Positions 4,283-63,172 of a stretch of 64,000 bases of DNA are shown in pieces (within the stretch, counting starts at the first letter, position 1; each line of letters starts with the position of its first letter). The translations under genes and the position numbers were made by a program. Origin of the DNA: Gammaproteobacteria bacterium. Its GTDB lineage: Bacteria > Pseudomonadota > Gammaproteobacteria > Steroidobacterales > Steroidobacteraceae. The stretch spans positions 26,818 to 90,817 of the forward strand of contig JAQGOG010000037.1 in the NCBI GenBank assembly GCA_028293765.1. Direction: 5' to 3'. The notes beneath the pieces were generated by a model, which made no database searches, had not been told where the DNA came from, and saw only the letters and a program-made list of their open reading frames with translations.

Positions 4283-5392
4283 TCATTTAGGACTTCGCCT
4301 GGCACCAGGCACTGTCGGAAGTCTGACCACCGTCCGTAACAGCCGTGTTTCGTCTGTGAGCGAGCCGCATTTCAATCGAAATAGTCGCGTGGTGTCAGTT
4401 CGCTCTCGCACGCTCATGAGGTCAGGATTTACTCCGACGCCGCGCGCGTCTCCTTGCGCAGGCTTGGCGGCCCACAACGGCGGCACCGGAGACGGGCACG
4501 TCTGAGGATTTCCGCCACGGGCGGTCCTCCCGATCAGGGGCGACGCACCGCGGTTGAGCGCCAGGCGCTGCACCACCTGCCCGGTGGCGCGATCCAGCAC
4601 CAGGAAATCTCCCGCCCTGTCCCCGATCGCCACCAGAGGGCGTGTCTGTCCGTCCACCTGGCCCTCGAACAGGACGGGAATCATCGCCGGATCGTCGTCG
4701 TGAGAGTCGTTCTGCAGGATCTTGTAGTACCACTTGATCCTGGGTTGCGGGCCCGAGATGTCCAAGGCGACGACCGAGTCGGTATAAAGATTCTCGCCCT
4801 CTCTGCCCTTGAGGACCATGTCGGGACCGGGATTGCCGGGGGCCACGAACAAGCTGTCGCTGCCCTGGTCGACGGCCAATCCGCTCCAGACGGCCCCGCC
4901 GCCGTGCTGCCAGGAATTGCCGGGCCAGGTTTCGTGTCCGGGCTGCCCGGGGCCGGGAATAGCCTGCCAGTCCCACAGGCGTCGGCCGTCCTTGATGCTG
5001 AAGGCGCTGACGAGCCCGAGGGTGCCGTTATCGCCGCCTCCGGTGCCGAGGATGAGCTGGTTTTTGTAGACGTAAGCAGCCATCGAGTAAAAGCTGATAC
5101 TGGTTCTCCAGGCCATGCCCAGCGCAGTGATATTGGTCTTGTCGATCTGCGTCAGTTGTGTGTATCGGTTTCCGGAATAGGTCTTCGCCGGCAGGACCCA
5201 ATTGGCATCATCGTGCACAGCCTCGAGCAAAGTTTCCGCGGCCGGGAAGCTTGCCGCGCGCGCGGCGATTTGCTCCGTCGATGCAGTTACGGGCATAAAC
5301 AATGCCGATAGCGTGACGACGATGAGGATCAGTAGCGCGAGTACCCCGAAGGTCTGGGGACGCCGCAGGGCCACGCGGATGAACGACAACAT
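4283..5392 (-). pseudogene. Decayed PQQ-dependent dehydrogenase with an RND-like N-terminus
   Basis: The open frame from ATG 5392 encodes about 369 residues. The first 35 (MLSFIRVALRRPQTFGVLAL and following) resemble the start of an RND pump, such as the one encoded at 9774. After that comes a PQQ beta-propeller: WVLPAKTYSGNRYTQLTQI, then NSWQHGGGAVWSG, NPGPDM and GENLYTDSVVALD. Compared with the intact paralogue at 54766-56856, roughly 100 residues with the vicinal cysteines are missing near residue 80. The HDVWDYD active-site motif is replaced by SHDDDPAM, and homology stops near WAAKPAQGD with the last blades absent. The final 45 residues are unrelated. Most likely non-functional. Confidence 0.75.
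4347..4381 (-). promoter_or_regulatory. Two-block operator-like element, copy G
   Basis: On the minus strand it reads TTTCG-AT-TGAAAT, 18 nt, then GAAAC. It points toward the secreted-protein gene starting at 4228. It lies in the non-homologous tail of the PQQ-dehydrogenase remnant, suggesting that this stretch is really the promoter region of the next gene. The function is inferred from recurrence in the window. Confidence 0.5.
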
Positions 5393-5437
5393 GGGGGCAG
5401 ATCTCCTGCAGCGCACTGGACGGGTTGACGATCGCTT

Positions 5438-5677
5438 CTAACCCAGCGCTATGACGGCGGTGGTTATTCCAAAAAAGAACGCCATCCCGATGGCGATGAT
5501 CCAGAGCGGATTGCGGAGGTCGTTGGGAGCCGCGGCTAAGTCGTCATTTGCGGCCGCGTGAGCCGCTGCAGTCGCCGGTACGGCAACTGTCGTCGCCCGT
5601 GCGGCAGAGCCGGTTGGCGGGGCAGTGGAGGAACCCTGTAAGGTGGACGGCCGGTGGTCGGCAGGTAATGAACTCAT
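5438..5677 (-). CDS. Small single-span membrane protein
   Basis: A 79-residue protein from ATG 5677, with a GAGG-type ribosome site next to it. The first 50 residues are Ala/Pro/Thr-rich and low in complexity. Residues 57-78 (LWIIAIGMAFFFGITTAVIALG) form one membrane span at the very C-terminus, a tail-anchored layout. It lies 45 bp before the PQQ remnant on the same strand, so it was probably its operon partner. A copy of the two-block element (5759-5792) lies about 103 bp upstream. Function unknown. Confidence 0.6.
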   Translation of the reverse strand: MSSLPADHRPSTLQGSSTAPPTGSAARATTVAVPATAAAHAAANDDLAAAPNDLRNPLWIIAIGMAFFFGITTAVIALG

Positions 5678-5750
5678 CGCCTCGCTCCCCGTTCGCGTCC
5701 GGCGAGCGCAATTGCCGCCGGTGTCAGGAGTAGCGTGGTGGGGAAGGGTT

Positions 5751-5770
5751 GCGCCGCGATTTCGCGGCGC
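5751..5770. terminator. Perfect hairpin after the signalling operon
   Basis: GCGCCGCG-ATTT-CGCGGCGC is an 8-bp perfect stem with a 4-nt loop, 47 bp beyond the stop of the OmpR-type regulator gene. No T-run follows. The loop and the edge of the stem also contain the second block (GAAAT) of two-block element copy F, so the same DNA may act as both hairpin and operator. Confidence 0.5.
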
Positions 5771-5792
5771 CCGGCGAGTGTTTCAGCTGCAA
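5759..5792 (-). promoter_or_regulatory. Two-block operator-like element, copy F
   Basis: On the minus strand: TTGCA-GC-TGAAAC, 17 nt, GAAATCG. It is about 103 bp upstream of the start of the 79-residue membrane-protein gene. Spacing and orientation match the other copies. Confidence 0.55.
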
Positions 5793-5816
5793 TTCACCGG
5801 CAACGCGGCCGCGTTT

Positions 5817-6548
5817 TCAATACAGGATTTCGACGGGAGATTTGAAGAGGTAGCCCACACCGCGTTCAGTGACGATGTACTGGGGCTGCGAGGCATCCGG
5901 TTCGATCTTGCGCCGCAGCCGGAGCACCTGCACGTCGATCGCGCGGTCGTAAACCTCGTTGTCGTAGACGCGGCTCGCCTCGAGGAGCTGGTCCCGGGTG
6001 AGGATTCTCTCCGGGGCAGCGAGCAGCGCGGCGAGCAAGTTGAACTCGCGGGTCGTCAATTCGATGTTCTCTCCGTCGCGGCGCTTGAGGCGCCGCGTTC
6101 GCAGATTCAGCTCGAATTCGGCGAACCGGTAGGCGCGAATTTCCCGCTGTCGCGCCTGCGCCAGAGCCGTGCTCTTCGTTCGTCGCAGCACTGTCCGGAT
6201 ACGCGCCAGCAGCTCGCGCGGACTGAAAGGCTTGGTCAGATAATCGTCGGCGCCGAGCTCGAGTCCCATCACGCGGTCGGCCTCGTCGCGCACGCCGGTG
6301 AGCATGACAATGGGTATCGCCGAGCTGTTGCGCAGCGTCCGGGCGATCGCCATGCCGTCCTCGCCGGCAAGACGCAAGTCGAGGACGACGAGATCGATCG
6401 CCTCGTCCGCGAGAATCTGCGACATCTGCGTGCCGCTCGATGCCACGCTGACGCGCAGCGCGTTCTCCGTGAGGTATTCCTCTAACAATTCACGGATCTG
6501 CGGGTCGTCGTCCACGACCAGGATGTGGGGCTGAACTATCTCCGGCAT
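5817..6548 (-). CDS. OmpR-family response regulator
   Basis: 243 residues from ATG 6548. A GTG at 6593 is in frame but would overlap the kinase stop and add a non-conserved tail. The receiver domain spans residues 7-120, with acidic residues DDD at 13-15, phospho-acceptor Asp57 in VVLDLRL and the conserved Lys in TKPFSPREL. A winged-helix domain of OmpR/PhoB type follows, with IDVQVLRLRRKIE and ending in ERGVGYLFKSP. It is the last gene of a three-gene operon after a hybrid kinase and a receiver protein, and is the likely output regulator. The DNA-binding half closely resembles that of the orphan regulator at 43401-44150. Confidence 0.92.
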   Translation of the reverse strand: MPEIVQPHILVVDDDPQIRELLEEYLTENALRVSVASSGTQMSQILADEAIDLVVLDLRLAGEDGMAIARTLRNSSAIPIVMLTGVRDEADRVMGLELGADDYLTKPFSPRELLARIRTVLRRTKSTALAQARQREIRAYRFAEFELNLRTRRLKRRDGENIELTTREFNLLAALLAAPERILTRDQLLEASRVYDNEVYDRAIDVQVLRLRRKIEPDASQPQYIVTERGVGYLFKSPVEILY

Positions 6549-6586
6549 GCCTGCTTGCCTCGATCGCCGCGCGCTCGTAAGGTAAT

Positions 6587-9130
6587 TTAGCACGGAATCG
6601 AGTGAACCGGTGCCGTCAGCACTCGCGCGAGCGCCTCGGCGAGGTCGCGGCGCTGAAGTGGCTTGCGCAACACCTCATTTACGCCGATAGCCGCCGCTCG
6701 CTTCGCGAGCTGCGGGCCACCGTGGCCGCTCATGAGGATGATCGGGACGTCGGGCCGAATCCTCCGGATGTCGCTCGCGAGCTCCGTGCCGATGAGATCC
6801 GGCATCGCTTCATCGGTGAGGATGAGATCGAAGCGCTCCGGCTCGGCTCGCAACGCCTGTAGGGCCGCGCTACTCGATTCGAAGCCCACGGGCTCGTAGC
6901 CGAGCTCTGCGAGCGTTTCCTCGGCGAGCGCCACGAGCGAGCTCTCGTCATCGACGATCATCACCGTTTCGCCACCGCCGCGGGGCAGCTCGCGCGCCGC
7001 TGCGACGAAAGGTCTTCCTGTTTCGCCCGCGACCGGCAGCCAGATCTCGAACGTCGTCCCTTCTCCCGGCTGCGTCGTAACGTCTATCGCACCCCCAAGC
7101 TCGGTCACGATGCCGTGCACGAGCGACAAGCCGAGTCCGGTGCCTGCGCCGACACCCTTGGTGGTGAAGAATGGATCGAACATGCGCTCCAACACCGCAG
7201 GCGGGATGCCGGTGCCGGTATCGATCACGGCGAGTCGCACATATGACCCCGGGGTCACAGAGCCCCGCGAAAATGTTTTGCCTTCGCTCAACTCGACGCA
7301 TTCGAGAACTACACTGAGTACGCCACCGTGCGCCATTGCGTGCAGGGCGTTGGTACCCAGATTCATCATAACCTGGTGCAGGTGCGTCGCGTCCCCGATC
7401 ACCGCCGCATTGCCTGCTTCGAGTGTTCTCTCCAGGCGTATTCCCGGGGGCAGCGAGGCTGCGAGCAGCTCGAGCGTTTCCTCGATGACGGACTGGACGT
7501 TCATTGGGACTCGCTCACCGAGCCCACTGCGGCTGAAACCGAGAATGCGGTCGACGAGCGCCTTGGCGCGCTCGGCCGCGTGCATGACATTGTCCAGGTA
7601 GCGCCGCAAGGTGCTGCCTGGCGCGGATTGCTGGTGCGCAAGCTCGCCGTACCCGAGGATCGCCCCGAGGATGTTGTTGAAGTCATGGGCGATGCCGCCT
7701 GCGAGCGTCCCGATCGCCTCCATCTTCTGCGACTGCCGCAGCTGCGCCTCGAGGTGGTCCTTGTCGATCTGGGCCTGCTTTTGCGCGGTGATTTCGATTG
7801 CCGAGCCGACGAATCGATACGGCTTACCGGTCGAGTCGCGTAGAAAACGCCCGCGTGCGAGCAGCCAACCCCAGGTGCCGCCAGGCTGGCGTACACGGTA
7901 TTCGCACTCATAGCGCGGCGTATGTCCCTCGAAATGCTCTCTAACTGCCGCTTCGCGGCGCGGCACGTCGTCGGGATGGATGACGATCGCCGCCATCCAC
8001 GCCGTGCGTGTGGTGATCGCACTGTCCTGGGTGATGCCTGTCAGTATTTTCATCTTCGGCGAGAGGAACAGGCGATCCGTCGCGACGTCCCAGTCCCAAT
8101 GCCCCTCGTTTGCGCCTTCCATTGCGAGCGCATAGCGTTCCTCGCTTTCACGCAGGGCACGCTCGCCCGCCTCGACACGTCGTAATTGGCGCAACAGAGC
8201 CACTATAGTCAACGCTCCCAGCAGGGTGATGATCAGCGTTCGCAGGCCGAGGCGGATTGCTTCGTCGCGCCACGGCCGCAACGCGACGGCCTCCTCGCGA
8301 GTGACCGCCAGCGCCAGGTTAGTATCCCTGACGCGTGCAACGGCGATGAAGTGGCGCTTCCCGTCGATTGGACTCTCGAGCGGAGTTTCCGGTGCATTCG
8401 ATTGGGCAGCGAGCTCGGGGAATCTCTGCCCCACCGCCGCGGGGGTCGGCGGGTTACGTACGAGCAGGGTCCCATCCGCGCGCAGCAGGTGGATCGCGCT
8501 CCCTCGACCGAGGTTGACGGCTCCATAGAACTGTTTGAGATCCTCCAGGTCGACGATTGCAGTGATAACGCCCGCGAATTCGCCTTTATCGTCGTCGAGC
8601 CGGCGCGAGAGGATTACCCCGGCGCGATTTTCGGAGCGAGTGATCAGCGGCTCGCTCATAAACAGCCCAGTCGCGGTGCGGTCCCGCTGAGCGATGAAAT
8701 ATGACCGGTCGGAGACGTCGAGATTGGGCGGTGACGATCCGCGCGACCGGTGGCGCTGAATCCCCTGCGCGTCGACGATCGTGATCAAGCGTACCTGCCG
8801 CACTCCCGCCGTGCGGCTAGCAAGAACGTCGTCGAGACGCTCCGGGGCGATCTTGTGGCTGTCGTTTACATACCAGCGCGCCGTATCGCGAAGCAGAAGG
8901 TCGACGGCTTGCCACGTCCATGCAGTTTGCTCGGCGAGCGCTTTTGCCACGTTGCCAGTCTCGCGATTGGTCGCAGCGATCGCAGTGTGATACGCGCGCC
9001 AGGCGTCGTAAACCGACGAGCCCGCAAACGCGAGGATGGCGAAAACGCCGAGCACGACTACTCCAAGTGCCAGACGCTTGAACCGGACGCAACCGGTCTG
9101 GGGTAATGCAGGCTCGTTCGCGGACGACAT
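6587..9130 (-). CDS. Hybrid sensor histidine kinase (Cache, PAS, HisKA, HATPase, receiver)
   Basis: 847 residues from ATG 9130; an in-frame extension to 9454 lacks conserved sequence. An N-terminal transmembrane helix and a second one near residue 315 flank a periplasmic double-Cache sensor with the DRSYF motif typical of ligand-binding Cache domains. A PAS domain follows (YALAMEGANEGHWDWDV). The histidine box GGIAHDFNNILGAILGYGEL, an ATPase domain with DTGTGIPPAVLERMFDPFFTTK and GTGLGLSLVHGI, and a C-terminal receiver (LILTDEAMPDLIG) complete it. The ligand is unknown. It sits between a receiver-only gene and an OmpR-type regulator, forming a probable phosphorelay. Confidence 0.92.
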   Translation of the reverse strand: MSSANEPALPQTGCVRFKRLALGVVVLGVFAILAFAGSSVYDAWRAYHTAIAATNRETGNVAKALAEQTAWTWQAVDLLLRDTARWYVNDSHKIAPERLDDVLASRTAGVRQVRLITIVDAQGIQRHRSRGSSPPNLDVSDRSYFIAQRDRTATGLFMSEPLITRSENRAGVILSRRLDDDKGEFAGVITAIVDLEDLKQFYGAVNLGRGSAIHLLRADGTLLVRNPPTPAAVGQRFPELAAQSNAPETPLESPIDGKRHFIAVARVRDTNLALAVTREEAVALRPWRDEAIRLGLRTLIITLLGALTIVALLRQLRRVEAGERALRESEERYALAMEGANEGHWDWDVATDRLFLSPKMKILTGITQDSAITTRTAWMAAIVIHPDDVPRREAAVREHFEGHTPRYECEYRVRQPGGTWGWLLARGRFLRDSTGKPYRFVGSAIEITAQKQAQIDKDHLEAQLRQSQKMEAIGTLAGGIAHDFNNILGAILGYGELAHQQSAPGSTLRRYLDNVMHAAERAKALVDRILGFSRSGLGERVPMNVQSVIEETLELLAASLPPGIRLERTLEAGNAAVIGDATHLHQVMMNLGTNALHAMAHGGVLSVVLECVELSEGKTFSRGSVTPGSYVRLAVIDTGTGIPPAVLERMFDPFFTTKGVGAGTGLGLSLVHGIVTELGGAIDVTTQPGEGTTFEIWLPVAGETGRPFVAAARELPRGGGETVMIVDDESSLVALAEETLAELGYEPVGFESSSAALQALRAEPERFDLILTDEAMPDLIGTELASDIRRIRPDVPIILMSGHGGPQLAKRAAAIGVNEVLRKPLQRRDLAEALARVLTAPVHSIPC

Positions 9131-9147
9131 TCGTTGCCCCCGTGGGA

Positions 9148-9510
9148 TCAGGTCGATGCGGCAATCATACCGCGCACCGTCTCGAGCAGATCGACTCGGG
9201 CTAGCGGCTTCGCAATGACCTGCTGTACGCCGAGCATCTGTGCGGTTGCGCCATTGCCCGACAGACCGGAACGAAACTGACCCGAGATCGCGATGATCGG
9301 CGTGCCCGGATGCGCTGCCTGGATGGCGCGCACCAGCCGCGGGCCCGCATGTTTGGGCATGTACACACTGACGATCACGAGATCCGCTCTGCCTCCCGGA
9401 TGCACCGGGTTCAGCGCGGCCGCCTGGACCCGATAACCTGCTTCGCTCAGCCACTCGATGAGGAGGGCACGCATCAGGTCATTTTCCTCGTATATCACAA
9501 TTTCCGACAT
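9148..9510 (-). CDS. Stand-alone receiver-like protein lacking the phospho-acceptor aspartate
   Basis: 120 residues from ATG 9510. The fold pattern of a response-regulator receiver is intact: acidic EEN at 8-10, the predicted third strand ADLVIVSVYMP, and the Lys-Pro of VIAKPLARVDLLE. However, Ser48 occupies the position of the phosphorylated aspartate. It therefore probably cannot be phosphorylated conventionally and may act as a pseudo-receiver that binds the kinase encoded 17 bp downstream. It is the first gene of the operon, and copy C of the two-block element lies about 115 bp upstream. It has no output domain. Confidence 0.8.
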   Translation of the reverse strand: MSEIVIYEENDLMRALLIEWLSEAGYRVQAAALNPVHPGGRADLVIVSVYMPKHAGPRLVRAIQAAHPGTPIIAISGQFRSGLSGNGATAQMLGVQQVIAKPLARVDLLETVRGMIAAST

Positions 9511-9603
9511 TCTTCCGGTCCACAAAGCCCTGAGGGGCCCGAAAGCGGCTGTGTGCCGCTCGAGCGCGTAAACCAAGCCTGCCGGACAGATTCGTCGTTT
9601 GCG

Positions 9604-9637
9604 ATTGCGAGCCGCCCGCCGCTCGTTTCAATTGTAA
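9604..9637 (-). promoter_or_regulatory. Two-block operator-like element, copy C
   Basis: On the minus strand: TTACA-AT-TGAAAC, 17 nt, GCAATCG. It points toward the signalling operon (start 9510, about 115 bp away). It lies only 36 bp from copy B, which faces the RND pump, so this divergent region would control both operons. Confidence 0.6.
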
Positions 9638-9673
9638 TGCGGCGCCGCTGCCGTTGCGCCGCACCAACACCGG

Positions 9674-9708
9674 TTTCAAGTGAAATGGCGGGGCGCGCCC
9701 TCTGAAAT
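9674..9708 (+). promoter_or_regulatory. Two-block operator-like element, copy B
   Basis: TTTCA-AG-TGAAAT, 18 nt, GAAAT on the plus strand, 88 bp before the RND pump start. The first block is a perfect dyad. Confidence 0.6.
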
Positions 9709-9773
9709 GGGCACGACACCTCGCGATCCCAGCATAGCGTTCCAAGACCATACTCAAAGCTCAGGAGAGACCC

Positions 9774-12700
9774 ATGCGGATCGTACGGATCGCGCTCGAG
9801 CGACCCTATACCTTCATCGTGCTGGCGCTGCTGATCCTGCTGCTGGGCGTCTTCACGATGTTGCGGATACCGATCGACATCTTTCCCAATATCAACATTC
9901 CGGTGGTCGCGGCTATCTGGAGCTACAGTGGGTTGTCGCCGGACGATATGGCGAAGCGCATCATTCTGCTGACCGAGAAGAGCGCGCAGACCGACATCTC
10001 CAACGTCGAGCACACCGAGTCGCAGTCGCTCAACGGCATTGGGGTGGCCAAGTATTTCTTTCAGCCCAACGTGAACGAGGACCTGTCGTACGCGCAGATC
10101 ACCGGCGTATCGCAGACTCTGCTGAAAAGTGTACCGCCAGGCACCGAACCGCCATCGATCCTCGCTTACAACGCGTCCACGGTGCCGGTCATCCAGCTGG
10201 CGCTTTCCAGCTCGACGCTGTCCGAGACACAGATCTTCGACCTTGGCTCGAACGTCGTTCGTACCACGCTCGCGACCGTGGCCGGTGCAGCCATACCGTT
10301 TCCATTCGGCGGCAAGCTCCGCCAGATCCAGGTGGATCTGGATCCGCAGGCTCTGCGCGCCAACGGCCTCTCCGGTACCGACGTGACCTCGGCCATCGCC
10401 GCGCAAAACCTGATTCTGCCGGCCGGTACGCAGAAGGTCGGGACACTCGAGTACTTCGTCAAGCTCAATGCGAGCCCGACCCAGGTTGCGCAATTGAACG
10501 ACCTGCCCGTCGCCACCCACAACGGAACCGTGATTTACGTTCGGGACGTCGCGCACGTTCGCGACGGCTCGCCGCCGCAGACGAACATCGTGCGGCAGGA
10601 GGGCCACCGCGCTGCTTTGATGAGCATTCTGAAGACCGGTACGAGTTCGACGCTCGACGTTATCAACGGAATCAAGCAGAAGCTGCCGCAGATGCAGGCC
10701 CTCCTGCCTCCCGGGCTCAAGATCCAGGTGCTGGGAGACCAGTCGATCTTCGTCCGTTCGGCCCTCTCGGGCGTGGTTCGGGAGGCCACCACGGCGGCGG
10801 TGCTCACGGGATTGATGGTCCTGCTCTTTCTGGGGAGCTGGCGCAGCACCGTCATTATCTTCGTCTCCATCCCGCTGTCGATCCTCGCCTCTATCGTGTG
10901 CCTGTCGGCGTTGGGTCAGACCATCAACATCATGACCCTTGGGGGGCTTGCGCTGGCGGTCGGCATTCTGGTGGATGACGCGACGGTGACCATCGAGAGC
11001 ATCAACACGCACCTGGAGCAGGGCAAGGCGGTCGAACCCGCGATTATCGACGGCGCGCAGCAGATCGCCCTCCCCAAGCTCGTGTCCACCATTGCCATCT
11101 GCATCGTGTTCGTTCCCATGTTCATGCTCGCCGGTATCGCCGGATACCTCTTCGTGCCATTCGCCGAAGCCGTCGTGTTCGCCATGCTGGCGTCTTACCT
11201 TTTGTCGGTGACGCTCGTGCTGACTCTCGCCAAGTTCTGGCTCAAACCGCACGCGGCGCACGGCGCGGGGCGCGGAATCCTGGCGCGCTTCGAGTCTGTC
11301 TTCGACCGGCTGCGGGGCCGGTATCACACCCTGCTGGAAGCCGCTTTGCGCAGCGGTCCGCGTTTCGCCGGCGTCTTTCTGCTTGCGATGGCGGCCACGG
11401 CTATCCTCGCGTTCCCGCTCGGAACGTATCTTCCGGGTCTCGGGCAGGATTTCTTTCCCACCGTCGACTCCGGCCAGATATTGCTGCATCTGCGCGCCAG
11501 AACGGGCCTGCGCATCGAGGAAACGGCCGCGCTCTGTGATGCGGTGGAGACGACGATTCGCCAGAGCATCCCATCCTCCGAACTCGCCAACGTGGTGGAT
11601 AACATCGGCGTTCCCTATAGCGGCATCAATCTCGCTTACAGCACCTCGTCCCCGATCGGACCGGGCGACGCCGACATTTACATCACTCTCGGCTCGAACC
11701 ATCACCCCACGGCGAATTACGTGAGCCTGCTTCGCCAGAAGCTCAACGCAATCTATCCCTCCACGACCTTCGCGTTCCTGCCGGCGGATATCAATAGTCA
11801 GATCCTGAATTTCGGTCTGCCGAGCCCGCTCGACATTCAAATCTCCGGGCCCAACGTGGACGCGAACCGTCTATACGCGAATGCCTTGCTGCAGAAGGTA
11901 CGTGCGATCCCCGGAGCCGTGGACATGCGCATTCAGCAGGCTTTCGACTACCCCCAGCTCAACGTGGACGTCGACCGCAGCAAAGCCCGGCTTGTGGGCC
12001 TGACTCAGAACGACGTGGCGTCGAACCTGCTGGTGTCGTTGTCGGGCAGCTTTCAGACGTCGCCCTCGTTCTGGATGGATCCCAACACAGGTACTCAGTA
12101 CAGCGTCGCCACGCAGACGCCGCAGTATCGCCTGAACACACTCAACGATCTGGCGGCGACACCGCTGCGACCGACTGGCGGCGCCGCTTCGCAGATGCTT
12201 TCCAATGTGGCGCTCTTCCACCGAAGCTCCGCTCCCGGGGTCGTGAGCCACTACAACGCCATGCCGGTGATCGACATCTACGGCTCCGTGGAGGGAACCG
12301 ATCTCGGTTTTATGTCGGCGCAGGTAAACAAGATCATTGCAGCCTCACAACACTATCTGCCGCGGGGCACCCAGGTCTTTGTACGCGGACAGGTGCAGAC
12401 CATGAATGCTTCATTCTCGGGGCTGCTCGTTGGACTGCTGGGTGCGATCGTGCTCGTGTATCTGTTGATGGTGGTCAATTTCCAGTCCTGGCTCGACCCT
12501 TTCATCATCATCACGGCGCTACCCGCGGCGCTCGCCGGCATCGTCTGGATGCTATTTCTGACACATACGACGGTCAGCGTGCCTGCGCTCACCGGCGCGA
12601 TCATGTGCATGGGGGTAGCCACCGCGAATAGCGTGCTGATCGTCAGCTTCGCCCGCGAACGCATGACGGCCGGTGACAACGCCTTCTCTGCGGCCTCCCA

Positions 12701-12929
12701 AGCAGGCTTCGCGCGCTTCCGCCCGGTATTGATGACGGCACTGGCGATGATCATCGGCATGGTGCCGATGGCGCTCGGGTTGGGAGAGGGGGGCGAGCAG
12801 AATGCCCCGCTCGGCCGCGCCGTTATCGGCGGTCTCGTCTTTGCTACCGTGGCGACGCTGCTGTTCGTACCAACTGTGTTCCGCCTGATTCATGGCCGAG
12901 GGCACCCGCCGCCGGCGCAGGCCGCGTAA
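9774..12929 (+). CDS. RND efflux pump, inner-membrane permease
   Basis: A 1051-residue proton-driven efflux transporter of the HAE1/AcrB-MdtB superfamily, full length. It begins with the classical N-terminal span (IVRIALERPYTFIVLALLIL). Two large periplasmic loops lie between spans 1-2 and 7-8. Span 4 carries the Asp pair of proton translocation in GILVDDATVTIES, which marks a drug/hydrophobe-type rather than heavy-metal-type pump. Start ATG 9774 has AGGAGA upstream. It heads a three-gene operon with adaptor and outer-membrane factor. The substrate is not predictable. Its promoter region holds copies B and C of the repeated element. Confidence 0.95.
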   Translation: MRIVRIALERPYTFIVLALLILLLGVFTMLRIPIDIFPNINIPVVAAIWSYSGLSPDDMAKRIILLTEKSAQTDISNVEHTESQSLNGIGVAKYFFQPNVNEDLSYAQITGVSQTLLKSVPPGTEPPSILAYNASTVPVIQLALSSSTLSETQIFDLGSNVVRTTLATVAGAAIPFPFGGKLRQIQVDLDPQALRANGLSGTDVTSAIAAQNLILPAGTQKVGTLEYFVKLNASPTQVAQLNDLPVATHNGTVIYVRDVAHVRDGSPPQTNIVRQEGHRAALMSILKTGTSSTLDVINGIKQKLPQMQALLPPGLKIQVLGDQSIFVRSALSGVVREATTAAVLTGLMVLLFLGSWRSTVIIFVSIPLSILASIVCLSALGQTINIMTLGGLALAVGILVDDATVTIESINTHLEQGKAVEPAIIDGAQQIALPKLVSTIAICIVFVPMFMLAGIAGYLFVPFAEAVVFAMLASYLLSVTLVLTLAKFWLKPHAAHGAGRGILARFESVFDRLRGRYHTLLEAALRSGPRFAGVFLLAMAATAILAFPLGTYLPGLGQDFFPTVDSGQILLHLRARTGLRIEETAALCDAVETTIRQSIPSSELANVVDNIGVPYSGINLAYSTSSPIGPGDADIYITLGSNHHPTANYVSLLRQKLNAIYPSTTFAFLPADINSQILNFGLPSPLDIQISGPNVDANRLYANALLQKVRAIPGAVDMRIQQAFDYPQLNVDVDRSKARLVGLTQNDVASNLLVSLSGSFQTSPSFWMDPNTGTQYSVATQTPQYRLNTLNDLAATPLRPTGGAASQMLSNVALFHRSSAPGVVSHYNAMPVIDIYGSVEGTDLGFMSAQVNKIIAASQHYLPRGTQVFVRGQVQTMNASFSGLLVGLLGAIVLVYLLMVVNFQSWLDPFIIITALPAALAGIVWMLFLTHTTVSVPALTGAIMCMGVATANSVLIVSFARERMTAGDNAFSAASQAGFARFRPVLMTALAMIIGMVPMALGLGEGGEQNAPLGRAVIGGLVFATVATLLFVPTVFRLIHGRGHPPPAQAA

Positions 12930-12946
12930 TGTCCCAGGAGACTTTC

Positions 12947-14161
12947 ATGTTCGTTCCTTCAGTTTCCAGTGCTAGAGACGTAGGCTCGCCGCGCGCGCGA
13001 CGCTACGCGCTTGCGGCTCTCGCCATTGCGTTGGGTCTCGCCGTTTGGGGGATCCTCAGCCGAGTGTCTGCGCGGGCCACGCTCGCCACCGACACCGCCA
13101 CGCTTGCGATTCCCGCCGTCAGTACGATCAAACCCGCGCAGGGGCAGGCCGCGGAGGCGTTGGTGCTACCGGGCAGCGTACAGGCGTATAACGAGGCGCT
13201 GATCCATGCGCGCACGAACGGCTATCTCCTGAACTGGTATACGGACATCGGTACGCGGGTGAAGAAGGGCCAGCTGTTGGCCGACATCGATACGCCGGAG
13301 GTGGACGAGCAGCTGCGACAGGCGCGGGCGGACTTAGCCACGGCGCAGGCAAATTTTGATCTTGCGCTGAGTACCAACCAGCGTTGGCAGGGATTGTTGT
13401 CCACGAAGTCCGTGTCCCAGCAGGCCGCGGATGCCGCTGCAGGGGACTCGGCCGCGAAGAAGGCGACGTTGGCGTCTGCCGCGGCCAATGTCGCCCGGCT
13501 GAGCGACCTCGAGTCTTTCAAACGCGTGTTGGCGCCGTTCGACGGGGTGGTCACGAGTCGCACCACAGACATCGGCGCCTTGATCAATGCGGGGCAGGGA
13601 ACAGCGCTGTTCAGCGTTGCTGACGTTCGCAGGCTGCGGGTGTATGTACAGGTGCCGCAGCTCTATGCGTCGAGCACGACGCCCGGTCTCGATGCCGATC
13701 TGACTTTCGCCGAGCGGCCAGGGAAAACATACCCGGCGCGGGTAGTGAGCACGGCAGACGCCCTCGATCCCAATTCGCGCACGTTGCAGGTGGAGTTGCT
13801 GGTCGACAATGCAGCGGGGGAGCTGTTTCCTGGCGCATACTCCGAGGTGCACTTCAAACTTCCGTCCGGGCCCGACAGCCTGCGCCTGCCCGCAAACGCC
13901 GTGCTCTTCCGCTCGACGGACTTGCAGGTCGCCGTGGTGGGGAAGGACCACCGTGTCACTCTGAAGAACATCACGACAGGCCGCGATTTCGGCACCTCGA
14001 TGGAAGTGCTCTCCGGCCTGAGTCCGGGCGATGATGTCGTCGTCAATCCGCCGGATTCGATTACAACCGGCGCGCTCGTGCGCCTGGCCCCACCACCAGC
14101 GCCAGCGCAATCTCCGCAGTCTGCCCCGAGTTCGGCGCCAACGGGAGGACGCCACTCGTGA
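12947..14161 (+). CDS. RND efflux periplasmic adaptor (membrane fusion protein)
   Basis: About 404 residues. ATG 12947 is preferred because CAGGAG lies 6 nt upstream; ATG 12929, overlapping the pump stop as TAATG, is the alternative. One N-terminal span is followed by an HlyD-like layout. This comprises a first half of the biotinyl-lipoyl domain (ARTNGYLLNWYTDIGTRVKKGQLLADIDTPEVDEQL), an alpha hairpin over roughly 125-190, the second lipoyl half (VLAPFDGVVTSRTTDIGALI), a beta-barrel and a membrane-proximal domain. It links the permease to the outer-membrane factor. The Pro/Ser-rich C-terminus is a flexible tail. Confidence 0.95.
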   Translation: MFVPSVSSARDVGSPRARRYALAALAIALGLAVWGILSRVSARATLATDTATLAIPAVSTIKPAQGQAAEALVLPGSVQAYNEALIHARTNGYLLNWYTDIGTRVKKGQLLADIDTPEVDEQLRQARADLATAQANFDLALSTNQRWQGLLSTKSVSQQAADAAAGDSAAKKATLASAAANVARLSDLESFKRVLAPFDGVVTSRTTDIGALINAGQGTALFSVADVRRLRVYVQVPQLYASSTTPGLDADLTFAERPGKTYPARVVSTADALDPNSRTLQVELLVDNAAGELFPGAYSEVHFKLPSGPDSLRLPANAVLFRSTDLQVAVVGKDHRVTLKNITTGRDFGTSMEVLSGLSPGDDVVVNPPDSITTGALVRLAPPPAPAQSPQSAPSSAPTGGRHS

Positions 14162-15600
14162 AGCCGCAACTTCTCGTTGCTCTGGGTGTCGCCGCCTCGC
14201 TGGCGGCCTGCTCGCTCGCGCCAGTGTACAAGACGCCGGCGACTGCACCGCCGGCAGCCGCCTATAAAGAGGCCGGTGACTGGCAGCCGGCACAGCCAGC
14301 AGATGCGCAGCCCCGGGGTTCCTGGTGGAGCACCTATCGGGACAGTCAGCTGGATGCGCTCGAGGGGCAAGTCACGGCTTCGAACCAGAACCTCAAGGCG
14401 GCGTTCGCGCGTCTCGAACAGGCACGTGCGCAAATGCGGCTCATGCGGGCCAACTACTTTCCAACCGTCACCGGGGCGGTTAGCGGAACTCGCACTAAAA
14501 GCTCGCTCAATTCGCCCGTTCACAGCGCAGTCAAGCCGAGGACCCAGAATGACCTGGTGCTCGAGAGTGATCTGTCTTATGAGATCGACGTGTTCGGTCG
14601 GGTCCGCAATTCGGTTGCAGCGGCGCGCGCGAGCGCGCAGGCCAGCGCAGCCGATCTCGCTGTCATCGACCTGAGCATGCATTCGGAAGTTGCGATGGAT
14701 TACTTCACCTTGCGCAGTGAAGATGCGCAGCAGGTGCTGCTGGATCAGACCGTCTCGGAATACGGCCAGGCGCTGGAGCTGGCTCAGAACCTGTACAACG
14801 GCGGAGCCGCTCCACTGGCCGATGTGGCGCAGGCGCAGGCGCAGTTGGAGACGGCTCGCACTCAGGCGGAGGATGTTCGCCTGCGACGGGCGCAAACGGA
14901 GCACGCCATCGCCGTGCTGGTGGACCAGCCGGCCTCGAAGTTTCGCTTGGAACCCAAGCCGCTGCCCCTGGACGCGGCCCCGCCGTCGATCGATGCGGGG
15001 CTGCCGTCAGTTCTGTTGGAGCGGCGGCCTGATGTTGCCGGCGCCGAACGGCGTGTTGCCGCGTCCAACGCGAGTATCGGCGTGGCGCGGGCGGCCTATT
15101 TTCCAGTATTCAGCCTTTCGGCCGCGTTGGGTTTCGAAAGCACGCACGGCTTCAGCTTGATCGACGCCCCGAGCTCCCTCTGGGCGCTGGGCTCTGGCGC
15201 GGTGATGACCCTGTTCGACGGCGGCCGACGGCGGGCGACAACGGATCAGGCTCGTGCCGCTTACGATGAGCAGGTAGCCAACTACCGGAACACCGTCACC
15301 ACCGCCTACAGTGAAGTTGAAGACTGGCTCGCAGCGCTGCGGCAGCTCGAACGGGAAAGTGTCAGCGAAGCCGCCGCAGTGGCCGCCACGACCACCGAGC
15401 TCGAGCAGGCCAACTACCGCTACAAGGCGGGCGCGGCTACGTACCTTGAAGTGGTGATAGCGGAGAACGCTTCGCTGGCGGCACAGTTATCGGCGGCTGA
15501 CATTCAAGTGCGACGCATGAATGCCAGCGTGCTGCTGGTCAAGGCGCTCGGTGGCGGCTGGGACGACCGCGTGCCCGCGGACAAGGTTGCGCGCCGGTGA
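14158..15600 (+). CDS. RND efflux outer-membrane factor (NodT/OprM family lipoprotein)
   Basis: 480 residues from GTG 14158, which overlaps the adaptor stop as GTGA and has GGGAGG upstream. A lipobox LAACS at residues 17-21 predicts a lipidated N-terminus. Two TolC-like repeats follow; the family signature is visible in LSYEIDVFGRVRNSVAAARA and in the second repeat around ASNASIGVARAAYFPVFSLSAALGFES. It forms the outer-membrane exit duct of the pump. Full length, no defects seen. Confidence 0.95.
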   Translation: MKPQLLVALGVAASLAACSLAPVYKTPATAPPAAAYKEAGDWQPAQPADAQPRGSWWSTYRDSQLDALEGQVTASNQNLKAAFARLEQARAQMRLMRANYFPTVTGAVSGTRTKSSLNSPVHSAVKPRTQNDLVLESDLSYEIDVFGRVRNSVAAARASAQASAADLAVIDLSMHSEVAMDYFTLRSEDAQQVLLDQTVSEYGQALELAQNLYNGGAAPLADVAQAQAQLETARTQAEDVRLRRAQTEHAIAVLVDQPASKFRLEPKPLPLDAAPPSIDAGLPSVLLERRPDVAGAERRVAASNASIGVARAAYFPVFSLSAALGFESTHGFSLIDAPSSLWALGSGAVMTLFDGGRRRATTDQARAAYDEQVANYRNTVTTAYSEVEDWLAALRQLERESVSEAAAVAATTTELEQANYRYKAGAATYLEVVIAENASLAAQLSAADIQVRRMNASVLLVKALGGGWDDRVPADKVARR

Positions 15601-15794: not shown

Positions 15795-15865
15795 GGGTCG
15801 CCTCTTTGCCACGACATTGCGCGGCTCTTCACGGGCGCAGTGTGGAGCGAAAATATTGGCCTCGC

Positions 15866-15899
15866 ATTTCTGTACCCACCGACGCGGTTTCACCTGAAA
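15866..15899 (-). promoter_or_regulatory. Two-block operator-like element, copy D
   Basis: On the minus strand: TTTCA-GG-TGAAAC, 17 nt, GAAATGC, 93 bp before the 42-codon gene. A TATTTT -10-like hexamer follows about 32 nt after the first block. The flanks (CGTA before, CG after) are shared with copy E. The rest of the gap, 15900-16177, shows nothing recognisable. Confidence 0.6.
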
Positions 15900-16177
15900 T
15901 ACGCTGCGCCCACACCTGTTGAGACGCCCTTAGCGTCACCGCGTTCTGCGCATTCGCCCCACCGCCCCGCGACCGTCCAGCTCGCGGAAAAGTTCAACGA
16001 GAATCCGATTCCGTGAGGCCATTGCGAGGTGTACCCTTCTGTCCGCTCAGACGACTTGCAGGCTTGGGTCGACCGCATCTGCAAGGATGCGCGGGCCGCT
16101 GAGGCTGGGCGGTGGCATTCGAGAGCCAGGCAAGGGCGCGCTTCACGAAAGTAACACCGGGCGCGAGGGGAAGGGTG

Positions 16178-18937: not shown

Positions 18938-18951
18938 AGCGCGTCCTTTGA

Positions 18952-20787: not shown

Positions 20788-20868
20788 GTGGTCGTCTCCG
20801 TAATTTAGGAAGCAGCGGGCTTGTGCCAAGCGAATGTCTGAAGGCTGTGCGCGGTCCATTTCCCAGCC

Positions 20869-20902
20869 ATTGCAGTCGCGGTGTCCTCGGTTACAGGTGA
20901 AA
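20869..20902 (-). promoter_or_regulatory. Two-block operator-like element, copy E
   Basis: On the minus strand: TTTCA-CC-TGTAAC, 17 nt, GCAATGG, about 103 bp before the HIBADH-like gene. It also lies 75 bp before the divergent di-haem peroxidase gene (20977), so it could serve both. A CATAAT -10-like hexamer is at 20937-20942 on the plus strand. Confidence 0.6.
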
Positions 20903-20976
20903 TACGCATCCCGACCGCTTCGTCGGATTCCGCATGCATAATGCTGACTGCTGGTGGATTCAGCGAGGGTCCCGTC

Positions 20977-43001: not shown

Positions 43002-43061
43002 GGTCGTTGCAAGGCCTCCGTTCACTCAGGCCGGATTATGCCCGCGTCGCGCTACACGGAG

Positions 43062-43094
43062 ATTTCACCGCGCAGAGAAATGTTACGGCAGTAA
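43062..43094 (-). promoter_or_regulatory. Two-block operator-like element, copy K
   Basis: On the minus strand: TTACT-GC-CGTAAC, 16 nt, GAAATC, 82 bp before the ATPase-regulator gene. The first block is the most diverged of the set; the second is exact. Confidence 0.45.
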
Positions 43095-43344
43095 TACATA
43101 ACTTCAGGATGTTACGAGGCGGCTGCCTGTGGCTGCGCCGCGAAGAGGGCATGACCGGCCAGGATGCTGCCCACCTCTCGCGAAGGACGGCTGTAGGGTG
43201 GAGTGTCGGGCCGGCCACGCGGAGATGAAAGCACCCTAAGAAACACGGGGCCCATTGACGAGTTGGCAACGGCCGTTAAAGCGGTGAAAAAATCATCGGC
43301 CACTATGGCACGCCCGCCGCTACGGCCTGATTTCAGAGAACGGT

Positions 43345-43370
43345 GCCCGTGTTACAGGCGTAACACGGGC
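43345..43370. repeat. Perfect 11-bp dyad with 4-nt loop
   Basis: GCCCGTGTTAC-AGGC-GTAACACGGGC lies 31 bp after the stop of the OmpR-type regulator. Strong hairpin, but no T-run on either side. It may end the regulator transcript or be a protein-binding dyad. The rest of 43095-43344 shows nothing recognisable. Confidence 0.55.
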
Positions 43371-43400: not shown

Positions 43401-44150
43401 CTAATAGCGTTCTACGGGTACCGCAAAGACATAGCCCACGCCACGCTCCGTCCGGATGATGCGCGGTGTGCTCGCGTCGGTCTCCAACTTGCGCCGCAGT
43501 CGCAGGACCTGAACGTCGATACTTCGGTCGAAGATATCTCCCTGTACCCGGGTAGCCTGGAGTAATTGCTCGCGGCCGAGCGGCCTTTGAGGAGCGTCCA
43601 GAAAAGCGACCAGCAAAGCGTGTTCGCTCTTCGTCAGAGTCACGGAAGCGCCGTCCGGGCTCACCAGGCGGCGACTGAGGGAGTCGAGCCGCCAGCCTGA
43701 GAATTTGTAGCCACCTCGCTGTGGCTCACGCATACGTGTGAGCCCGTTCAGCTCCTGCCGCCGCAGCACAGCCCGAACCCGCGCCAGCAATTCCCTGAGT
43801 CCGAACGGCTTCGTCACGTAGTCGTCCGCACCGAGCTCGAGGCCCACCACGCGGTCGATCTCCTCTAGCCGGTGGCCCGTGGTGATGATCACGGGAACAT
43901 CCGAACTGGATCGAATCTCTCGGAGCAGATCGAGGCCGTCTTCCCGCCCCAGCCGCAGGTCAAGGATGATCAGGCTCGGCAGGCTCTCGGCGAGATGGCG
44001 ATTCAACTCCAGCCGGCCGGTGGCTGCGGTGACGGACACGTCGTGCTCCGCAAAGTAGCTGGTCACCATTCGCCGCATGGCGGGATCATCATCGACGACG
44101 AGTACGTGATACGTCTTTCTGCTGTTGTCGGAGTTTAGGGCGCCATCCAT
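43401..44150 (-). CDS. OmpR-family response regulator without adjacent kinase
   Basis: 249 residues from ATG 44150 (GTG or ATG codons further upstream add unconserved sequence). Receiver with DDD at 20-22, phospho-acceptor Asp64 in IILDLRLGRE and Lys in VTKPFGLREL. The OmpR-type winged helix ends in ERGVGYVFAVPVERY. The recognition region IDVQVLRLRRKLE is almost the same as in the regulator at 5817-6548, so the two could bind related sites. No histidine kinase is next to it; the hybrid kinase at 46092 or that at 6587 are possible partners. Confidence 0.9.
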   Translation of the reverse strand: MDGALNSDNSRKTYHVLVVDDDPAMRRMVTSYFAEHDVSVTAATGRLELNRHLAESLPSLIILDLRLGREDGLDLLREIRSSSDVPVIITTGHRLEEIDRVVGLELGADDYVTKPFGLRELLARVRAVLRRQELNGLTRMREPQRGGYKFSGWRLDSLSRRLVSPDGASVTLTKSEHALLVAFLDAPQRPLGREQLLQATRVQGDIFDRSIDVQVLRLRRKLETDASTPRIIRTERGVGYVFAVPVERY

Positions 44151-44507: not shown

Positions 44508-44655
44508 AATGTTCTCCTCGAGTCCTCCACGGGACTGCAACGGTGTTGATATGCGGTGGCGGCCAGGCTCGTGTGCTGACCGTCGCCATATCATGCGTTG
44601 GGAGTCGGCTCGATGGTGTTAAGAGATGAAATGACTGTTGCGGCTCTGGGCTTCA

Positions 44656-44689
44656 TTACAACTGAAACAAAACGCAGGCCCGGTGACAT
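44656..44689 (+). promoter_or_regulatory. Two-block operator-like element, copy H (no obvious target gene)
   Basis: TTACA-AC-TGAAAC, 17 nt, GACATCG on the plus strand. No annotated plus-strand gene follows. At the usual distance (84 bp) an ATG at 44752 opens a 24-codon frame ending at 44826. Alternatively the element serves the membrane-protein gene at 44507 from the other side. The 371-bp gap 44508-44878 holds nothing else supportable. Confidence 0.5.
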
Positions 44690-44878
44690 CGAGCGGTGAC
44701 GTGGAACTGTCACGAGCTTGACGAGCGCGGTGGCGCGCTCGATGACGCCTCATGGGTTATAACTCGCGGGAACGGGGCGGCATCGATGGAGCGAGCGGCG
44801 CTTTCAACAGCGAGGCGGCATTCTAGTGGGAGACGTGGAGAGTCGGACTCCGCTCACGAGTACCGCAGCGAGCGTCGC

Positions 44879-54652: not shown

Positions 54653-54687
54653 ATTACAGTTGAAACCGAGCGAGGGCGATCTGAAAT
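54653..54687 (+). promoter_or_regulatory. Two-block operator-like element, copy A
   Basis: ATTACA-GT-TGAAAC, 17 nt, GAAATCG, 100 bp before the PQQ alcohol dehydrogenase start. A TATCAG hexamer follows at 54695. It is the best plus-strand match to the consensus. Confidence 0.62.
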
Positions 54688-54765
54688 CGAAGCGTATCAG
54701 GCAGGGGCGAAGTTGTTGCCAACTTCGCGGCGCACTGCGCGCCAGATGACAACGGGAGACACATC

Positions 54766-56856: not shown

Positions 56857-56883
56857 GACGTCGGCCAAGCCCGAGAAATAGCA

Positions 56884-59221: not shown

Positions 59222-59259
59222 CGCGAATCAGGTTAGCTCGCCGGCCACCGCAAGCTCTG

Positions 59260-61327: not shown

Positions 61328-61388
61328 CTCTGCTTTGAACCGGGTGCTCACGATGTGCGCCAGTGTCCGGGTTGGCCGTTTCTCGCTG

Positions 61389-61422
61389 GTTTCACCATGC
61401 GCGTCGTGAATTACGAGTGAAA
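61389..61422 (-). promoter_or_regulatory. Two-block operator-like element, copy I
   Basis: On the minus strand: TTTCA-CT-CGTAAT, 17 nt, GAAACC, 84 bp before the small frame at 61327. One mismatch in block 1 and a final C in block 2, as in copy G. Confidence 0.5.
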
Positions 61423-61587
61423 CATAGGACTGTCACGTTTCGCTCGCCCTCGGAGGAGCGGCTCATCCAGTCACGGTCTGCGTCGCGGGAGCCAGACGAG
61501 CGCGGTCAGCACGATAGACAGGATGGCTGTGTTGATCTGCAAGTCACACATGTGGCACGTCGGTCCACCTGGCTTTTGGGCCCGGCG

Positions 61588-62715
61588 CTAGCTTGGCGTG
61601 GGCGCGTTTTGCTCTATCAGCTTCTGCCTCTTCAGCTCGCCCCAGAACTCAGGGGGAATCGTCGCTTGCATCGAGGTTATGTTGGCGAGGACCTGCTCTT
61701 CGCTCCGCGCACCGACGATCAAAGCTGCAGCGACATCCGGGGCTGCGGAGAAGCGTTGCGCTGCGGTTCGAAGGTCTGCACCGTACTGGGCGGCGACCGC
61801 ACGGAGCCTCGCTCGCTTTTCGATGTATTTGGGCGGGATGTCCCAGGAAGTCTTGCCGTAGTTATAACGCGGACTTCCGGAGATGAACCCGGCGTTCAGG
61901 GACGAGCCGATCACGAATTTGACATTACGCTGTCGCGCTACGGGAAAGACGTTGTTGAGCGCGTTGGCATGTTCGATCAGCGAGTACTGGGATGCCAGCA
62001 GGCACACGTCCGGGTCCGCCTCCTGCATGACTCTGAGGATGGGTTCGGGCGTGTTCACACCGATGCCCCAGCCCTTGATGATTCCTTCCTCCTTCATACG
62101 GGCGAGGGCCGGGAACGCACCCTTTAGCGCGATCGCAAACTGTTGCTGCCAAGGCGTCGGCAACAGTTTGTTGTCGGCTGAGATGTCGTGCACGAACACG
62201 ATATCGAGATTGCTTACGCCGAGGCGCTGCAGACTGTCTTCGACGGAGCGGCGGACGCCGTCAGCCGTGTAGTCGAACACGACGTTGTTTGGAGACGGTG
62301 AGAAGGGAAACTTCGATTTTGCGTCGTTCTGCCTGGAAGCCTTGAGCAGCTTGCCGACTTTTGACGATAGGATGTACTCGTCCCGATTCTTGTTGTGCAG
62401 GAAGTACCCGAAGCGTCTTTCGGCCAGTCCGAGCCCGTACCACGGCGACACGTCGTAATAGCGCACGCCGGCGCTCCAGGCCGCATCCAGCGTCTTGTAC
62501 GCCTCCTCGTCCGTGATTACTTCAAACTCGTTGCCCAGCGGCACACCGCCCAAACCAAACTTGATCGGTGGTACGTAGTGCTGGCTCCGCTCGCCGGCTC
62601 CGCTTTGCGTGCCAGTCCCAGGTGCCGCGAAACCAGGCCGACTTGCAATTACGCCGCCGGCCGCCAAAGCGGAGCCCGCTGCCGCGATGCCGAGAAAATC
62701 GCGTCTAGATGTCAT
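61588..62715 (-). CDS. Tat-exported aldo/keto reductase
   Basis: 375 residues from ATG 62715, with GGAGG 9 nt upstream. The signal TSRRDFLGIAAAGSALAAGG is a twin-arginine export signal, so the enzyme should act in the periplasm. The body is an AKR barrel of the D-threo-aldose dehydrogenase (fucose dehydrogenase) group. It shows FDTSPWYG-like YYDVSPWYGLGLAERRFG, the Lys in LSSKVGKLL, VHDIS and ALIVGARSEEQV. NAD(P) would have to be acquired before export. It is the only gene of its strand before a large spacer. Confidence 0.9.
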   Translation of the reverse strand: MTSRRDFLGIAAAGSALAAGGVIASRPGFAAPGTGTQSGAGERSQHYVPPIKFGLGGVPLGNEFEVITDEEAYKTLDAAWSAGVRYYDVSPWYGLGLAERRFGYFLHNKNRDEYILSSKVGKLLKASRQNDAKSKFPFSPSPNNVVFDYTADGVRRSVEDSLQRLGVSNLDIVFVHDISADNKLLPTPWQQQFAIALKGAFPALARMKEEGIIKGWGIGVNTPEPILRVMQEADPDVCLLASQYSLIEHANALNNVFPVARQRNVKFVIGSSLNAGFISGSPRYNYGKTSWDIPPKYIEKRARLRAVAAQYGADLRTAAQRFSAAPDVAAALIVGARSEEQVLANITSMQATIPPEFWGELKRQKLIEQNAPTPS

Positions 62716-62876
62716 GCTCGAAGTCCTCCGTTGCAACGCATTTCGCTCTGGTTCACGGCTCAGGTCTCGCCCACCCCCTGCTACTTGCGCCGGCCTTGGG
62801 CATTGCGCTTGCAGAGGCCGTGCGCGTCGACGCCGAGAGAGATCCAGCCGCGGGTGCTCAGCGCGTAGCCTTTCAC

Positions 62877-63065
62877 CTATGAGGCCTGAGCGGCCCCAGC
62901 TCTATGAATTCCATCCCATCTTCCGTTTGCTGCTTCGGCCTTATCCCGGTAGGTGACCCCGCGGCAATCCTGCCAGGACCTTCCAAATAAGAGCCCTTCG
63001 TCCGCGCAGCCTAGCCGGAGGGTGGCTGTGGGGGTCGCGTGTTCTGTCGAGGAGGGGCGGGTCAA
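62877..63065 (-). CDS. Weak candidate small gene behind element copy J
   Basis: 62 residues if read from TTG 63065, with two Cys and no recognised motif. No ribosome site. The only support is its position, 96 bp downstream of a well-conserved element copy. It could equally be leader sequence of the aldo/keto reductase gene. The remaining spacer 62716-63525 shows no other gene. Confidence 0.2.
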   Translation of the reverse strand: MTRPSSTEHATPTATLRLGCADEGLLFGRSWQDCRGVTYRDKAEAANGRWDGIHRAGAAQAS

Positions 63066-63138
63066 GCGGGTCCGTCAGGACTCTGTCAGCGATCCTCTCG
63101 ACTTGCCGGCAGTCTGGCGGCTGAGCGCTTGCAACATG

Positions 63139-63172
63139 ATTTCGCGGTGCTGGTTTCATATTTCAAATGAAA
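63139..63172 (-). promoter_or_regulatory. Two-block operator-like element, copy J
   Basis: On the minus strand: TTTCA-TT-TGAAAT, 17 nt, GAAATC. Block 1 is a perfect dyad. The next firmly supported minus-strand gene, the aldo/keto reductase, starts 446 bp away. Confidence 0.55.

Follow-up and report, generated by a model that had tools for sequence, protein, structure and literature searches.

A putative vir-box promoter module beside a VirG-like regulator gene, and a predicted efflux and redox-defence regulon, in a genome of the Steroidobacteraceae

The response regulator VirG and its operator, the vir box, are familiar above all from plant infection and symbiosis. Other two-component systems, such as AdeRS and BaeSR, control an adjacent RND pump, and PhoB-type promoters carry direct repeats 11 bp apart in place of the -35 box. 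The vir box is represented by the pattern RTTDCAWWTGHAAY in the Beav annotation pipeline (PMC11351099), and the vir half-box is given as TG(A/T)AA(C/T) in a paper on Xanthomonas (PMC10432156), which reports for Xanthomonas euvesicatoria a VirA/VirG-like system beside type IV secretion system (T4SS) genes, with predicted half-boxes, and a virG gene that was dispensable for the promoters tested; VirA/VirG-like systems beside type VI secretion system genes are reported for Xanthomonadales (PMC6653060). Here we describe a DNA element that recurs in a stretch of 64,000 nucleotides (the window; contig C113, positions 26818-90817) in the genome of a gammaproteobacterium of the Steroidobacteraceae (GCA_028293765.1; the own genome, G000; 6.64 Mb, 211 contigs), which also encodes a VirG-like response regulator, RR1, and a VirA-like hybrid kinase. 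The reading that we favour, and consider probable from the sequence comparisons, is that the element is a vir-box promoter module which RR1 likely binds, and through which it would activate an efflux and redox-defence regulon of about 40 promoters.

A preliminary description of the window had listed eleven copies (A to K) of a two-block element and had proposed an undescribed regulon. All eleven were confirmed in the sequence at their places, and a twelfth copy, X, was added. Block 1 (TTWCANNTGWAAY) occurs at seven distinct sites in the window (14 strand matches), versus 0.07 strand matches (about 0.03 sites) expected. The full two-block pattern gave six exact matches in the window and none in 60 first-order simulated windows; when one mismatch was allowed, five more places were found (F, G, H, I and X; about 0.05 expected, from 20 simulations). 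Element K, about 270 bp downstream of X, did not match the pattern within two mismatches. The elements of the window are as follows; G005 is the sister genome, and G001 and G128 are two further genomes of the same order.

4320..4382, minus strand: element G, with vir box, block 2, block 3 and -10; upstream of an open reading frame (ORF) for a small secreted protein (3773-4243)
5732..5793, minus strand: element F, directly downstream of the RR1 gene and upstream of a shortened PQQ-domain frame (4283-5416); same position in G005
9577..9638, minus strand: element C, upstream of the receiver, kinase and RR1 genes; related genes with element in G005
9673..9735, plus strand: element B, upstream of an RND pump operon; related pumps with elements in G005, G001 and G128
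15839..15900, minus strand: element D, upstream of an ORF for a small membrane protein (about 48 aa)
20842..20903, minus strand: element E, upstream of a HIBADH-like dehydrogenase gene (19894 to about 20787)
43035..43095, minus strand: element K, with a 15-nt gap and a weak vir box; same -10 letters
43303..43364, minus strand: element X (pattern match at 43330-43363), absent from the preliminary list
44655..44716, plus strand: element H, a pattern match at one mismatch
54653..54714, plus strand: element A, upstream of a cytochrome c-PQQ dehydrogenase gene (54766-56856); related gene with element in G005
61362..61423, minus strand: element I; the next long ORF encodes a nucleotidyltransferase (60129-61133)
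63112..63173, minus strand: element J; the next long ORF begins about 440 bp further on and encodes an aldo/keto reductase (61588-62736)

In the whole own genome, ungapped block 1 was found at 31 distinct places (30 and 31 strand matches, versus 3 and 5 for the pattern read backwards), 10 of them on contig C113, which makes up 1.4% of the genome. All but one of the 31 lie outside called genes, although the simple codon-model caller marked 70% of the same DNA as coding; the sole in-gene place, on C208, is without block 2. Element G, which is not among the 31, lies within the 3' end of the shortened PQQ frame (4283-5416). The places on C208 and C76, both without block 2, were rejected as full elements, as was C53:29186, a long perfect palindrome around TTTCATTTGAAAC without block 2, upstream of a gene for a 361-aa protein; we regard this palindrome as a different element. 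When the frames downstream of the own sites were compared with those of 26 sites in G005, 12 of 43 own sites were found to precede clearly related proteins that also have an element in the sister species (two weaker pairs, C113:3670 and C199:92621, were left out of the 12). Because the element is non-random, nearly always intergenic and conserved in the sister species, it withstood the two tests set for it in the preliminary description, i.e. its frequency relative to genes and chance, and its conservation in orthologous promoters. By this comparative evidence, we take the element, and the predicted regulon with it, to be real.

The flanks of the 31 own sites gave the layout RTTWCANNTGWAAY, 16-17 nt, GMAAY (block 2), 6 nt, GYAAY (block 3), from an alignment of the 28 sites (of the 31) that have four or five of the five letters of block 2. 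The third block, 11 nt after block 2, is weaker (G, A and A at 22, 19 and 20 of the 28 sites). In G005, a perfect block 2 was found in 12 of the 22 sites read, and four of five letters in eight more, with a chance of about 2% per site for a perfect block 2 over the allowed gaps and strands. At a fixed distance from block 2 there follows a -10-like NANNNT, of which A(+27) and T(+31) were each present in 37 of 46 sites (23 and 22 of 27 own sites; 14 and 15 of 19 G005 sites); these 46 were picked via block 2 and not via the two letters, and the own sites C41, C208, C76 and C53 and the G005 sites C97, C144 and C234:40969 were left out. In the window, both letters stand at the modal position in eight of the eleven copies first listed; C, J and X have them displaced by one base, and in H the A alone is present. 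NANNNT reads as the pattern of a sigma-70 -10 box; if it is one, the vir box would be centred at about -62, block 2 at about -38 and block 3 at about -27. The two downstream half-boxes are direct repeats 11 bp apart where the -35 box would sit, and abut the predicted -10 region as in an OmpR/PhoB-type promoter. The two-block description had caught part of this layout; the third block, the -10-like NANNNT, copy X and what block 1 is had escaped it.

As to the identity of block 1, the published vir-box pattern RTTDCAWWTGHAAY is matched exactly by nine of the 31 own sites, with one mismatch by 15, with two by six and with three by one; many of the others fit if the centre is relaxed. The operator core, judged by its letters, is the Agrobacterium vir box bound by VirG and is already known. 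The claim of an undescribed operator is not supported: the work on VirA/VirG already knows block 1 as the vir box, and the adjoining regulator and kinase are VirG-like and VirA-like. New here are the promoter layout beyond the core, the set of targets and the setting. Among the papers listed in literature searches, none was seen, by its title or the opening of its abstract, to describe an efflux regulon under the control of VirG or the vir box.

The candidate signalling genes lie together on the minus strand, as follows.

5817..6593, minus strand: RR1, VirG-like response regulator (Response_reg and Trans_reg_C), the predicted likely binder of the elements
6587..9055, minus strand: VirA-like hybrid kinase (dCache, PAS, HisKA, HATPase, receiver), with its start guessed inside ORF 6587-9454
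9148..9510, minus strand: stand-alone receiver, the first gene after element C, with Ser at the phospho-acceptor position

RR1 has the receiver and Trans_reg_C domains of an OmpR/PhoB response regulator and is 50% identical to VirG of the Ti plasmid pTiS4. Its best NCBIfam model is that for VirG (NF010430, an equivalog), at 266.7 bits against a cut-off of 344; VirG of pTiS4, whose gene lies between virB11 and virC2, scored 493 bits on the same model. The stretch that we take, from knowledge of the OmpR fold, to be the recognition helix reads VYDRAIDVQVLRLRRK in RR1 and VYDRSIDVLILRLRRK in VirG, and VYDRxIDVxxLRLRRK is common to RR1 and pTiS4 VirG. For the kinase, the best of 118 NCBIfam families was VirA-like (NF010411; 414 bits, cut-off 647), in an alignment confined to its kinase and receiver domains (residues 557-949). 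Between 9148 and 9454 the long ORF of the kinase runs over the receiver gene in a different frame, and the kinase probably starts near 9055. The phospho-acceptor Asp is missing in four of eight receiver sequences, that of the window included, and present in the other four. An OmpR-type regulator had been among the binders proposed in the preliminary description, and RR1, with VirG as its best model and its co-occurrence with the element (see below), is the likely regulator predicted from these comparisons.

The module is kept in most of the genomes with an RR1 relative. In G005, the kinase and receiver beside the RR1 relative are 72% and 67% identical to those of the window; the values are 63% (kinase core) and 45% (receiver) in G264, and 51-55% (kinase core) and 32-34% (receiver) in G238, G128 and G001. 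Kinase and receiver also accompany an RR1 relative in Variovorax sp. PDNC026 and Paraburkholderia, and a kinase was found in Cupriavidus. For G214, a search of 100 kb around its RR1 relative (L178:9326-10030) revealed neither a close kinase nor a close receiver; this relative carries Glu in place of the phospho-acceptor Asp of the others and is possibly an orphan, always-on form.

Element and regulator occur together. Relatives of RR1 were found in G000 (100% identity), G005 (86%), G264 (74%), G238, G128 and G001 (60% each) and G214 (54%), and all other matches, among those listed for the 25 genomes searched, were at most 51% identical. With a weight matrix built from the own sites, for which simulated sequence gave 0.13 matches of even 13 bits per 64 kb, matches of at least 25 bits were found within about 5 kb of the RR1 gene in six of six relatives. 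A sequence-only model of 24 own sites (R1) was run on 20 of the 25 genomes (E <= 0.1; at most 150 first-look candidates scored per genome) and gave 41 matches in G000, 23 in G005, eight in G214, two in G238 and one each in G001, G128 and G264; G and K had no match in this search of the own genome. Matches were found in seven of seven genomes with an RR1 relative of at least 54% identity and in one of 13 without (G285, a weak match with E 0.024; Fisher P about 1e-4). The matches are clustered, with seven of the eight of G214 within 82 kb and 14 of the 41 of G000 on C113. Among 296 genomes of the same order, at least 20 block-1 matches were found only in G000 and G005 (the latter with 20/22, versus 1/2 in the control). 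Outside the order, 15 matrix matches of at least 22 bits were found in four of seven VirG-like loci (Cupriavidus, Paraburkholderia, Variovorax sp. PDNC026 and Indioceanicola), versus two in 1.37 Mb of DNA surrounding 78 other regulators of the OmpR class. Sites were also read in six other genomes, and those with a perfect block 2 were G214 L149 and G296 L133, the latter with a gap of 18 nt. Block-1 matches of the form TTTCACGTGAAAC (in G296, and part of those in G285 and G312) were set aside as elements, being look-alikes of what we take to be parS.

The likely targets shared with G005 comprise the receiver/kinase genes, two RND pumps, two PQQ-domain frames (one of them, after element F, shortened in the window), an aldo/keto reductase, an MFS transporter, a cupin (oxalate-decarboxylase-like, by eye), a DUF3300 protein, a lipoprotein with an element also in G264 and G214, a 132-aa protein, and the small protein after element G. 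Other likely targets in the own genome are catalases, a second aldo/keto reductase, the HIBADH-like enzyme, a molybdopterin oxidoreductase, a 2Fe-2S protein (by eye), a LuxR-type regulator, STAND regulators and an ArsB-like permease; the theme is likely efflux and redox chemistry, with quinoproteins, reductases and catalases. Of the targets first proposed, the receiver/kinase/OmpR operon, the RND pump and the PQQ dehydrogenase stand as likely, and the ATPase regulator is retained as a likely target and not as an actor. The next start codon, put at 80-145 bp, is roughly there for most copies; for copy I the first long ORF begins about 290 bp on. The genes likely controlled by elements B, K and X are the following.

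9774..15600, plus strand: RND efflux operon (permease, adaptor and outer-membrane channel, by domain and NCBIfam models), likely target of B
40131..43025, minus strand: regulator with Trans_reg_C and STAND ATPase domains, likely target of K and X

In G001 and G128, an element is flanked by RR1 on one side and, on the other, by an RND pump with 70% identity to that of the window, and this order suggests that control of the pump is old. No element was found ahead of virB, virD or T4SS genes, where those of a virulence regulon would lie; there is none on C162 and C191, the contigs that hold two VirB4-type ATPases, and other vir genes were not searched for. As side observations, the closely similar operators at C199:30205, C174:30896 and C199:94984 of G000, which precede a decayed fragment of a STAND regulator, an intact STAND regulator and a catalase, are a duplicated promoter region, and elements at G005 L123 and G214 L176:8281 precede ECF-type sigma-factor-like genes (by eye).

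Two paralogous VirG-like regulators are encoded in the own genome in addition to RR1.

43401..44150, minus strand: RR2, second VirG-like response regulator (267.3 bits to the NCBIfam VirG model, below the cut-off of 344)
C174:7510-8211 of G000: RR3, VirG-like regulator, paralogue of RR2

RR2 and RR3 are 73-74% identical. The recognition-helix stretch is nearly letter-for-letter the same in RR1, RR2 and RR3, so that the three may share vir boxes. A PAS-PAS hybrid kinase is encoded near RR2 (46092-48077, minus strand) and is a possible partner of it.

As we picture the circuit, a signal sensed by the VirA-like kinase through its dCache and PAS domains would lead to phosphorylated RR1, of which one dimer would occupy the inverted repeat (near -62) and a second dimer the half-boxes (-38 and -27), in place of the -35 contact, as at PhoB-type promoters. 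The receiver/kinase/RR1 operon would activate itself through element C, the neighbouring RND pump may be the old target, and in the two genomes with large regulons the additional paralogues RR2 and RR3 may share the boxes.

That RR2, or RR3 on C174, runs most of the regulon, with RR1 left to drive no more than the RND pump and the operon to which it belongs, is an unlikely account, and one partly compatible with ours, which allows for sharing. It draws on the confinement of RR2 relatives at 74-76% identity, among 20 genomes, to G000 (RR3) and G005, i.e. the two with large regulons (41 and 23 elements), and on the near-identical helix stretch; however, genomes that have RR1 but no close RR2 relative still have the element, often adjoining RR1, and no element of at least 17 bits was found in 16 kb around RR3 or in 19 kb around the RR2 relative of G005. 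We consider it very improbable that the STAND ATPase regulator (40131-43025) is the binder, with K and X as autoregulatory sites. Its DNA-binding domain is of the right class, two elements precede its gene and one precedes its relative on C174, yet its distribution does not follow that of the element, and it was rejected as the actor: G226, G286 and G288 have full-length relatives (37-44% identity) and no element at E <= 0.1, G285 has one weak match, and G001, G214 and G238, which have elements, match only its DNA-binding domain.

Two readings of the layout itself were rejected as misfits. A promoter of an alternative sigma factor, with TGAAAC as -35 and GAAAT as -10, would account for two hexamer-like blocks 16-17 nt apart, and the same contig also carries an ECF-type gene, while another (by eye) follows an element in G005; it is scarcely credible for a block 1 that is palindromic, followed by a third block and, further down at a fixed distance from block 2, by a -10-like box. 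Equally remote is a LysR-type regulator that would use the palindrome as its recognition site and the -35 region as its activation site: the usual LysR layout, a palindrome near -62 with contacts near -35, would fit, but the palindrome is even-length and not of the T-N11-A form that is the rule for LysR sites, the downstream blocks are direct and not inverted repeats, and no LysR domain was found in the window genes scanned, which were part of all window genes.

Several points weigh against RR1 and the vir-box module as the explanation. RR1 and the kinase both scored below the NCBIfam cut-offs for VirG and VirA-like, for which reason they are named only VirG-like and VirA-like. Elements H and C7 are without a convincing downstream gene, and RR2, which was found only in the two large-regulon genomes, could play the leading part in them. 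Some small genomes exceed the block-1 control as well, for block 1 alone (G233, 15/12 versus 2/4; G180, 12/11 versus 3/1). The genomes compared for co-occurrence are a non-random sample, to which G214 came because of its sites; the 24 training sites are counted among the own R1 matches; and the single matches in G001, G128 and G264 are weak (E 0.009-0.086), that of G264 not being the site beside RR1. Elsewhere, three of the seven VirG-like loci (L188, L189 and L271) had no match at 22 bits. On the stretch of pTiS4, the one vir-box place fits the published pattern and has GAAAT after 17 nt on the virC side, with no third block 11 nt on; because of this missing block, the full layout is not claimed for the Ti plasmid.

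If the vir-box module and RR1 act as predicted, a VirG-like detoxification regulon shows a role of such circuits outside plant infection and symbiosis. The promoter grammar (vir box, two half-boxes, -10) would allow prediction of VirG-type regulons in other genomes, and growth of a regulon after duplication of its regulator would be testable within one genus, in species with one to about 40 predicted copies. More speculatively, and as a possibility that we hold to be doubtful, the VirA/VirG-vir box circuit might be a widespread chemical-defence circuit of environmental proteobacteria with the RND pump as its old target, in which duplication of VirG spread the four-part vir-box promoter over about 40 efflux and redox operons here, and control of T-DNA in Agrobacterium would be a borrowed use.

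Compared with VirA/VirG of Agrobacterium, the system shares the vir-box inverted repeat, a regulator of the OmpR class whose sequence is about 50% identical to that of VirG and whose recognition-helix stretch is nearly the same, and a hybrid kinase with a VirA-like best model; it differs in likely targets that are efflux and redox genes and not T-DNA or T4SS genes, in the two added half-boxes at fixed spacing with an apparent -10 (one pTiS4 place compared), in the dCache and PAS input of the kinase and the stand-alone receiver of the module, and in the scores of regulator and kinase below the curated cut-offs. The systems of X. euvesicatoria and Xanthomonadales are likewise VirA/VirG homologues outside Agrobacterium, but adjoin secretion genes. 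With OmpR/PhoB activators, for which a PhoB box lies near -35, the element shares direct repeats at an 11-bp distance immediately before a -10-like box, and has in addition an upstream palindrome of vir-box sequence. As in AdeRS and BaeSR, an OmpR-type regulator gene lies beside an RND operon that is likely under its control; the operator here is a different one, and the predicted promoters number about 40.

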